Source of the DNA: Armatimonadota bacterium
Lineage (GTDB): Bacteria; Armatimonadota; UBA5829; DSUL01
DNA: 64,000 nucleotides
Assembly: GCA_025998755.1 (NCBI GenBank)
Contig: AP024674.1
Location: forward strand, 2,000,162 to 2,064,161
Reading direction: 5' to 3'
This document shows positions 8,207 to 45,309 of the stretch, piece after piece. Position numbers and translations under genes: made by a program. Within the stretch, counting starts at the first letter, position 1. Each line of letters opens with the position of its first letter. The notes under the pieces were generated by a model that saw only the letters and a list, made by a program, of their open reading frames with translations, had not been told where the DNA came from and searched no databases.

Positions 8207-8341
8207 GAGCCCCTAGCCTGACGTAGCCACGCTCGTCTCCAACAGGCGCGTACAGTAAGATGACCGACGCAACGGCCCTTTCCCCTTAGCGAGTCAAGGA
8301 TTATCCGAGAGACGAACTGGAGGGTGGAAATGTTCCAGCCT

Positions 8342-8386
8342 GTGGTTTCGACTCGTCCGCCCGCGGCGGACGGCTCAACCACCGTA
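8342..8386. repeat. dispersed repeat, copy 4 (second hairpin only)
   Basis: GTGGTTTCGACTCGTCCGCC...GGCGGACGGCTCAACCACC, that is, only the second palindrome. With copy 3 on the far side of the gene, the pair looks like one element split around the 7547-8206 gene. The gap 8207-8671 otherwise holds copy 5 and the short leader of valS. Confidence 0.75.
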
Positions 8387-8430
8387 TGGTGAGTACCGGG
8401 AATAAGGTCCCGGACCTCCCGGACTTGTAT

Positions 8431-8536
8431 TACGCTGGTCGAGTAGCGCGCCGAAAGGCGCGCGTATCGAGACCTCGTCGGCGGCTGACTGCGGTTTCGA
8501 AGCGCCCGCCGGAGGCGGACGGCTCAACCACCGTAG
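8431..8536. repeat. two-hairpin dispersed repeat, copy 5
   Basis: A complete copy: TACGCTGGTCGAGTAGCGCGCC / GGCGCGCGTATCGAGACC, then GGTTTCGAAGCGCCCGCC / GGCGGACGGCTCAACCACCGTAG. It ends about 135 bases before the valS start. Confidence 0.8.
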
Positions 8537-19787: not shown

Positions 19788-20642
19788 TTGAGGCCGGACC
19801 CGTCACGAGATGAAGCAGGCGCCCGCGGCCGGAGCCGCGCGTTCACGCTGATCGAGCTTCTGGTGGTCATCGCGGTGATCGCCATTCTGGCCGGGATGCT
19901 GTTCCCGGTATTTACCAGGGCGCGGCAGACATCACAGAGGGCGCGCTGCCTTTGCAATCTCAGACAGCTGGGATGGGCGGCCGCGATGTATGTGGATGAC
20001 TGGGCCGGCATCCTGCCGTATCCGGGCGGGGAAGACCTGGCGCTCAGGGCGGCAAAGGGTTTTCCCCTTCCGGCATGGGACGAGTTCGTGAACGGAGGTC
20101 TGGACGTCTACCTCAGAAGCAAGTCCGCCGGGGACACAGTCTGGCGCTGTCCGCTGGGTAAGAAGCCTCTAGCCACAGAACCGGTGGGCGGACGCTCCAA
20201 CAGTCTGGGCCGCAGCTATGCCTTCAACGACTTTCTGCGGCCCTTCAACAGGGGACGCAACTTCTGGGAATACCGGGGGCTGCGCGCGTCCGCCGTGGAG
20301 ATCCCGTCAAGAACCATTCTGATATTCGAGGGATACCAGGACTACACCAACGAGGTATATTGCTACCGCAACGGATCGCCGGTCATCGAGGGACCGGAAG
20401 GGCTGCCGGTCTGTATGCACAACGGGAAGATGAACGCTGTCTTCTGTGACGGGCACGTGGAAACCGTCTTTCCGCCCGACACCTGGGCCGCGGGGCGCTG
20501 GGGACGATACGTCGCGAAGCCGAACAGCTTCGTGTTCTATCGTGTCCGGGGTGGCTGGACCGGGCCGATGCCCGACCGCTGGGCCCCGTTCTGGCCGTAC
20601 GACAAGTATCTGGTGGATCCCGATCCGATTCCGCCTCCCTGA
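19788..20642 (+). CDS. prepilin-type N-terminal H-X9-DG domain protein (pseudopilin-like)
   Basis: About 284 residues. The type IV pilin-like methylation helix FTLIELLVVIAVIAILAGML begins near residue 19, followed by FPVFTRARQTSQRARCLCNL and RQLGWAAAMYVDDW. The C-terminal H-X9-DG element is seen as HNGKMNAVFCDGHVE. This architecture is abundant in Planctomycetes, Lentisphaerae and Armatimonadota, where many paralogues occur with unknown roles in secretion or the surface. The start is not certain: I prefer TTG 19788, with AGGAGG just ahead; a longer start near 19689 falls on the -10 box. It is the best taxonomic hint in the window. Confidence 0.85.
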   Translation: MRPDPSRDEAGARGRSRAFTLIELLVVIAVIAILAGMLFPVFTRARQTSQRARCLCNLRQLGWAAAMYVDDWAGILPYPGGEDLALRAAKGFPLPAWDEFVNGGLDVYLRSKSAGDTVWRCPLGKKPLATEPVGGRSNSLGRSYAFNDFLRPFNRGRNFWEYRGLRASAVEIPSRTILIFEGYQDYTNEVYCYRNGSPVIEGPEGLPVCMHNGKMNAVFCDGHVETVFPPDTWAAGRWGRYVAKPNSFVFYRVRGGWTGPMPDRWAPFWPYDKYLVDPDPIPPP

Positions 20643-20694
20643 GGCGGCAAGCGGGCGGGGCGATATGGAAGAATGAAAATGTTGCAGGACAATC

Positions 20695-20723
20695 TGGACT
20701 TGCAGACGTGCGCCTGCTACAAT
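20695..20723 (+). promoter_or_regulatory. promoter of the 20.7-kb structured RNA
   Basis: TGGACT at 20695-20700 (4 of 6 to consensus), a 17-base spacer and TACAAT at 20718-20723, preceded by TGC, which gives an extended -10. Confidence 0.5.
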
Positions 20724-20726
20724 AGA

Positions 20727-20860
20727 GGCGGTGGGCCGCTGAACCTGCGGTTTAGAACACAGTCTGGACTTTACGCTGAGAAGACAGTAAGACACCACAG
20801 AGCCGGCGGAGAGTCTCTGTTTCTAACCGAGGAAGCTTTCCGGCCTACCGCCTTCTTTTT
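20727..20860 (+). ncRNA. candidate structured RNA, about 134 nt
   Basis: Both ends pair in an 11-bp closing stem: GGCGGTGGGCC (20727-20737) with GGCCTACCGCC (20842-20852), directly followed by TTCTTTTT. Inside is a bubble of 10 and 12 bases, then a second long stem between CGGTTTAGAACACAG (20748-20762) and CTGTTTCTAACCG (20817-20829), 13 pairs with two bulged bases. The apical part can fold further. A promoter lies just ahead and no reading frame of note is inside. The closing stem, bubble and long apical stem recall 6S RNA, but it is shorter than usual and I cannot confirm this. The gap 20643-20910 holds only this unit and a hairpin, GGGGGCGC / GCGCCCCC, at about 20873-20900. Confidence 0.5.
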
Positions 20861-20910
20861 GACGGCGATAGGCGGGGGCGCTTCTCGGTGACGCGCCCCC
20901 GGCTGTCCTG

Positions 20911-21405
20911 CTAGGATTGCTCCTTCTCTTCTTTCTCCCTCTCCAGATAACGCAGGAACTGGGTGGGCTTCACCACCAGGGCCCTTCCCGCGCCGCGCAC
21001 GTCCAGCAGGTGGTTGTCGCTTGAGATGAGGTAGTCCGCGCCGGCGGCAGCGCACTCCAGGTACTTCTGATCCTCCGGATCCGCCGCTCGCTCCGGCACC
21101 GCAGCCGGCTCCACCCTCTCCGCCGTGGCCAGATATTGCTCCACCAGCCGGATGAAATCCTGCGGGACCCCGACTTGAGCCACCAAACGGCGCAACTCAC
21201 GCGCGACGGCGGGACTGCACATATGCCGCAGCTCGCCCTGCAGGCACATCCTGATGATGCGCGCGGACGCGCTGGCAGCGTTCCAGCGCGCGGCGAGAAA
21301 GCAGTTTGTGTCCAGCACCACGCGGATGCGAGCGTCCTGCCTCAACCTTTTCGTTCCCGGGGCCAATAACTTTCCGTGAAAAGGGCCTGCCGTCCAGCCC
21401 GACAT
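20911..21405 (-). CDS. PIN-domain protein, putative ribonuclease (toxin-like)
   Basis: Up to 164 residues; the PIN domain starts at IRVVLDTNCFLAARW. The acidic metal-binding residues are the Asp of VLDTN, Glu of SPAVARELRRL, and Asp of GADYLISSDNHLLD. PIN domains cleave RNA with Mg2+; this type resembles stand-alone VapC-like or COG1569 proteins. No antitoxin-sized gene lies next to it on the same strand, so a toxin-antitoxin role is not shown. The start is uncertain: the ATG at 21405 adds about 25 residues before the domain, and GTG or TTG codons closer to it are possible. Confidence 0.75.
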   Translation of the reverse strand: MSGWTAGPFHGKLLAPGTKRLRQDARIRVVLDTNCFLAARWNAASASARIIRMCLQGELRHMCSPAVARELRRLVAQVGVPQDFIRLVEQYLATAERVEPAAVPERAADPEDQKYLECAAAGADYLISSDNHLLDVRGAGRALVVKPTQFLRYLEREKEEKEQS

Positions 21406-44327: not shown

Positions 44328-44349
44328 TTCGCGGAGCCCCTGAAGCATT

Positions 44350-44390
44350 ACGGCCGGGAGGCGAAGGTCTCCCGGCCGTTAAGCGTTTTT
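44350..44390 (+). terminator. terminator after nfeD-slipin
   Basis: ACGGCCGGGAG (44350-44360) pairs perfectly with CTCCCGGCCGT (44369-44379) over an 8-base loop, followed after a short TAAGCG by TTTTT (44386-44390). Confidence 0.75.
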
Positions 44391-44409
44391 ACCATCGTCT
44401 AGACAGCGC

Positions 44410-45309
44410 CTAGAGCTTGTCCCGCAGCCAATCGAGCACTGCGGCGCGCATCTCCGGGGTCTCCCGGTGACCCGTGTCGAAGCGGAGCAGCCTCCAGTTC
44501 TCCGGAGCCCCGGCATCCGCGTAGACCTTCTTGATAGCCTCATCCACGCGGTCCAAGCCCTCCACGGGTGTGAGAGGGTCCTTCAGGCCCGCCAGGGACA
44601 GATGCGGGCGGGGAGCGATCAGCGCGTTGATGCCCGCGGTGTCAAAATGCTTCAGGAGCGAGGGCACGTAATAATAGATGCCGTGCCCGTCCAGCCCTCC
44701 GCTCTCGATGAGCGCGTGGAAGTCCGTCAGGCAACAGATGTCCACGCAAACCTTGACCCGCTCATCGAGAGCAGCGTGCCACCACGCCATAGTCGAGCCC
44801 ATACTCATCCCCAGCGACGCGATCCGCGAGGGGTCCACATCCGGCCGCGAGACGGCATAGTCGGTGGCGCGGATGGTGTCGAAGACCATCATCCCCCACA
44901 GCACCCGCCCCTTCCAGAGCATCTCCTTGAAAACCGAGCTCTCCGTCCGTCCCGCGCGCTCACCGAAGACCCAGTGGTCGATGCACAGGGTATGGATCCC
45001 CAGCCGGGCCAGCGCCTCACCGTAGGGCGGCTGCTGAAGGAACTCCCGGGGCCTGATGGCCTCATCCTTGCCAATCCGGTAAGCTCCCCCGTGAGCGTGG
45101 TTGTAGATGACCACAGGCGCCTTCTCTGCCGGAGCACGGCAGAACCAGGCCGGGACAGGCTCGATGCCGTTCAGATCCAGAATGAGCTTTTCGAGGACAA
45201 AGCCGTCCCGGTGCTCCTCCAAGAGCTTTTCTGCCCGGACCGGCCCGTCCCGCCCAGGGAGATCTCCCAGAAGCGACCAGAGCTGTCCGCGCCTTTCAGT
45301 CGGCTCCAC
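44410..45309 (-). CDS. alpha/beta-hydrolase, probable carbohydrate esterase
   Basis: 299 residues without signal peptide. The nucleophile elbow is [16 protein letters not shown], the acid probably the Asp of [13 protein letters not shown], the His in [13 protein letters not shown]. The fold resembles acetyl-xylan esterases and the abhydrolase_7 group. GTG 45309 begins three bases after the stop of the GH172 gene, so the two form an operon; removal of an ester from the glycan treated by GH172 is a reasonable inference. Confidence 0.82.

Follow-up and report, generated by a model that had tools for sequence, protein, structure and literature searches.

The segment of plus strand between a DUF1559-type pilin gene and a PIN-domain gene in an Armatimonadota genome raises the question of whether it encodes an RNA in its own right and, if so, of which class. 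The segment lies in a 64-kb stretch of DNA, hereafter the window, and the initial annotation read it as a structured RNA that recalls 6S RNA or represents an undescribed class. A real, undescribed and lineage-restricted small RNA gene, ordinary in kind, is well supported here by comparison between genomes. The coordinates of its features are collected in Table 1.

Table 1. Features of the predicted RNA gene in window coordinates. G001, congener; G003, Armatimonadetes bacterium WAS_Bin_18, from another genus of the same family; CM, covariance model.
Feature	Position	Strand	Basis or conservation
Sigma-70-type promoter, extended -10 (TGGACT, 17 nt, TGC-TACAAT)	20695..20723	+	Identical in G001; equivalent in G003
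Small RNA gene, predicted transcript ~131 nt	20729..20860	+	No substitution versus G001; CM homologue in G003
Closing stem, 5' strand	20726..20738	+	Folding; three pairs changed on both sides, pairing kept in G003
"Bubble", 5' side, contains GAA able to pair with the 3'-side UUC	20739..20747	+	Alternative fold
Inner and upper stems, 5' strand	20748..20778	+	Folding
Apical loop AGAAGACAGUAAGACACCACAGAGC, tandem AAGAC, most conserved element	20779..20803	+	21-nt core versus G003
Upper and inner stems, 3' strand	20804..20829	+	Folding
"Bubble", 3' side, about GAGGAAGCUUU; GAA.CUUU conserved	20830..20840	+	
Closing stem, 3' strand, doubles as putative terminator stem	20841..20853	+	Folding
TTCTTTTT tail after the closing stem, putative intrinsic terminator	20853..20860	+	T run 2 nt longer in G001

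The arrangement at the locus points to a small structured RNA encoded independently, with a predicted promoter and terminator of its own. The extended -10 promoter claimed by the initial annotation is borne out, with one such promoter found against 0.2 expected in shuffled sequences, and the T tail is present as described. Both ends of the RNA (20729 and 20860) are inferred from the promoter and this tail. The same placement between the pilin and PIN genes exists in the congener, and the gene downstream of the RNA in the window lies on the opposite strand. Around the -35 element, a direct repeat TTGCAG occurs at 20682 and 20700 (window 20682-20705), 18 bp apart, and is kept in the congener despite a differing spacer; it is possibly an operator. 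The -35 stretch ACAATCTGGACTT (20689-20701) recurs inside the RNA at 20759-20771 with 12 of 13 positions matching, is not kept in the G003 homologue and is probably a product of chance.

Compared with the congener, the block 20693-20881, comprising the promoter, the RNA and the terminator, contains no substitution in 189 positions, and the longer T run is its sole change. The conserved block begins at the promoter and stops about 20 nt beyond the terminator. As yardsticks from the same pair of genomes, the surrounding coding DNA is approximately 80-95% identical, the PIN protein 78%, and the SRP RNA is identical at 97 of 100 positions. The predicted RNA gene is evidently under strong purifying selection, and that it carries no substitution in two species that do differ in their SRP RNA suggests that its function is important.

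The window RNA folds into a rod with a minimum free energy of -58.9 kcal/mol (z -4.17), and none of 200 shuffled sequences is equally stable. Fold stability alone is not decisive, because 13 of 1,065 same-length windows of the GC-rich 64-kb stretch reach an equal or lower z; chance is excluded by the conservation, not by the folding energy. The closing stem has 12 bp (20727-20738 with 20841-20852), is supplemented by the pair A20726-U20853, and contains the 11-bp stem originally described (20727-20737 with 20842-20852). The inner stem named in the same description is likewise found. The 10/12-base bubble between the two stems is not firmly open: it is unpaired in the minimum-energy fold of the window RNA, but an alternative with GAA paired to UUC is equally stable (-56.6 versus -56.7), and the matching stretch of the G003 homologue is paired (GGAAG with CUUUU).

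The window RNA and its identical copy in G001 were combined into a covariance model (R1), which finds one further full-length match, G003:C38:540-667 (34.5 bits, E 1.4e-4 for one genome). This diverged copy lies upstream of recF and has its own promoter-like sequence, read by eye as TTGTTC-17-TATGCT with an upstream TG; a T tail directly after the stem is absent from it. With the loop held open, the G003 RNA also adopts the rod of the window RNA, at -43.4 kcal/mol; its unconstrained optimum, in which the inner rod splits into two hairpins, lies 2.7 lower at -46.1. The homologue contains 10 G-U pairs against one A-C mismatch, and the plus strand is supported by this excess of G-U over A-C.

Between the window and G003, all 11 aligned pairs of the closing stem are kept. 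Pairs 1, 2 and 6 are changed on both sides (A-U to U-A, G-C to U-A and G-C to A-U, respectively), and two further pairs exchange G-C and G-U. In slid-strand controls, 33-53% of the positions are paired, with 0-3 double changes. The model-fitted alignment (A5) yields eight pairs changed on both sides versus 0-3 for slid strands, a count to be read with the bias of this alignment towards the model; when the window and G003 RNAs are each folded on their own energies, four double changes remain. The covariation rests on two distinct sequences, and the signal in the inner stem is weak. Compensatory base changes in homologues had been set as a test by the initial annotation, and the three double changes in the closing stem supply them, arguing for selection on the structure across species.

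The strongest conservation of the RNA resides in its apical loop, a feature absent from the initial annotation. The loop is nearly invariant over 23 nt, reading RAAAGACAGWAAGACWCCACAGA and then, after at most one extra base, GCCGGCGGAG; its 21-nt core, AAGACAGNAAGACNCCACAGA, is identical in G003 except at the two N. In a search of the whole genome on both strands for the loop motif or its complement with up to three mismatches, only the RNA itself matches. A long antisense target is unlikely because the motif is without another genomic match within three mismatches. Near complements of the loop within the window are not clearly above chance. The loop as a mimic of 23S rRNA (AAGACGGAAAGACCCC) was considered and rejected, the match to the genome's own 23S rRNA being no better than that of shuffled sequences.

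A second covariance model (R2), built with the G003 copy included, was run across 291 Armatimonadota genomes and detected no other convincing homologue; 288 other genomes of the phylum show none. The family has a fourth member, G002, in whose 94% complete genome R2 detects no copy. Weak R2 matches in the RNA's own genome and elsewhere were rejected, as they are devoid of the conserved loop. In a collection of 84,980 species, the exact loop motif occurs in seven contigs, and the stems accompany it only in the G001 and G003 copies; the other five are chance matches without stems. With three mismatches allowed in 101 genomes, the inspected matches in G002, G025 and G007 are without a comparable rod, the one in G002 sitting in a protein-coding frame. 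Short blastn matches to the promoter (G005, G010, G012 and G003:C108) have no comparable RNA downstream, and nothing convincing was found in phages, viral contigs or plasmids. The genomic neighbours are not conserved between genera, with the pilin and PIN genes in the window versus recF in G003. By these searches, the RNA is restricted to one family of Armatimonadota.

The likeness to 6S RNA was a principal suggestion of the initial annotation. Similar to 6S (SsrS, RF00013), the RNA is a predicted free-standing gene, its two ends form a closing stem, and an internal loop and an apical stem follow in order. A shortened second 6S of the 6S-2 type, which would mimic an open promoter and trap the RNA polymerase holoenzyme, could be read from this order. 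However, RF00013 has no match in 20600-20900 at E values up to 10, and a canonical 6S, the only RF00013 match in the genome, is situated at C1:1183859-1184055. A phylum-level model (R3) from 12 Armatimonadota 6S RNAs, the genome's own among them, gives this canonical 6S 119.6 bits; at the RNA locus its matches are fragmentary and do not exceed about 3 bits, and the phylum 6S marks UUUUGAGCCGACACUCAAA and CACACGGCAC are absent from the RNA. The predicted length of approximately 131 nt falls outside the range of about 160-200 nt for 6S RNAs (PMC9130861, PMC8876501). Length alone cannot exclude 6S, because B. subtilis 6S-1 remains functional in vitro after truncation to 78-82 nt, which leaves the bubble and a pair of short arms (PMC8876501). 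What excludes the 6S assignment is that no model matches, that 6S has a gene elsewhere in the genome, and that the conserved sequence sits in the apical loop; the bubble is paired in the homologue. A shortened 6S is therefore largely refuted and very improbable, and a 6S-like shape alone misleads in a genome that holds a genuine 6S. Divergent housekeeping RNAs (SRP RNA, RNase P or tmRNA), together with a leader or terminator belonging to an adjacent gene, are slightly less probable again. The conservation does reach housekeeping level, but the SRP RNA (RF00169) is found elsewhere, at C1:2268214-2268312 with 68.8 bits, and RF00169 has no match at the RNA locus. Rfam scans of the window, the RNA region and the G003 locus, the latter two at permissive thresholds, returned chance matches only. 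A leader or terminator role conflicts with the different context in G003 and with the opposite orientation of the downstream gene here. Least probable of all is that the hairpin arose by chance or that the locus encodes a short protein. Comparable z values elsewhere in the window and a 72-aa frame crossing the RNA speak for it, but they are set against the substitution-free block, promoter and terminator included, and against a homologue with compensatory changes yet shifted frames. The 72-aa frame has no Pfam match, and a conserved peptide is disfavoured because of 1-2 nt indels and unrelated overlapping reading frames. An undescribed structured RNA, the other proposal of the initial annotation, agrees with the lack of an Rfam match and the compensatory changes in the homologue. 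In the literature searched, no paper mentioning both "Armatimonadota" and "noncoding RNA" was found.

A free-standing, family-limited and trans-acting structured RNA, whose loop most likely pairs with target mRNAs, is the reading preferred here, tentatively and with slightly less than even confidence. The RNA would be transcribed as a trans-acting molecule of ~131 nt. Its rod would serve both as terminator and as a stable scaffold, and recognition would fall to the exposed loop, which carries the two AAGAC units. The CNCC stretch of the loop could cover a Shine-Dalgarno-like GGNG in target mRNAs, and such pairing would control translation or decay. Two features favour pairing with mRNA, namely the length of the conserved single-stranded stretch and the freedom of the rod stems to vary between genera. 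Trans-acting sRNAs with an exposed seed loop share the sigma-70 promoter, the intrinsic terminator, the conserved single-stranded stretch and the changing context; in contrast to them, this RNA is mostly one rod, the stem that closes the entire molecule doubles as its terminator stem, and no known family is matched. Binding of a protein by the loop or the rod of the same RNA gene, be it a sequestered regulator, a nuclease or the RNA polymerase core as with Ms1, is nearly as likely, since the AAGAC units resemble a repeated site and the identity with the congener extends to both strands of the stems; taken by itself, it is a serious possibility on the doubtful side. RNAs that bind RNA polymerase moreover share the general form of a rod interrupted by an internal loop (PMC9130861). 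However, no known protein-binding motif is recognised, the internal loop is not conserved as open, and Ms1 and 6S are longer (PMC9130861). The Ms1 RNA of Actinobacteria, ~230-300 nt and a binder of the RNA polymerase core, is likewise an independent gene, 6S-shaped yet not 6S, with an internal loop in its rod (PMC9130861); the RNA described here does not fit it in length and has no Rfam match. A new RNA class, in which the rod would offer the tandem-AAGAC loop to a global regulator or RNA polymerase and would be constrained like SRP RNA within one Armatimonadota family, is unlikely. The conserved loop provides a direct handle for target finding.

Meanwhile, several further elements exist near the RNA and elsewhere in the window. 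The PIN-domain protein (20911-21405), convergent to the RNA, belongs to the putative toxin family TIGR00305 (31.2 bits, cut-off 29.15). A link between the RNA and this gene was rejected, as it is not kept in G003. Between the two, at 20867-20907, lies a GC-rich imperfect inverted repeat with 18-nt arms, which is diverged in G001. Other unusually stable folds (z -5 to -7) occur in the window at 8341-8475, 44341-44475 and 44641-44775. Among them is a 13-bp perfect hairpin near 44350-44379; it directly follows a 260-aa frame, just past its stop codon, and is probably a terminator.
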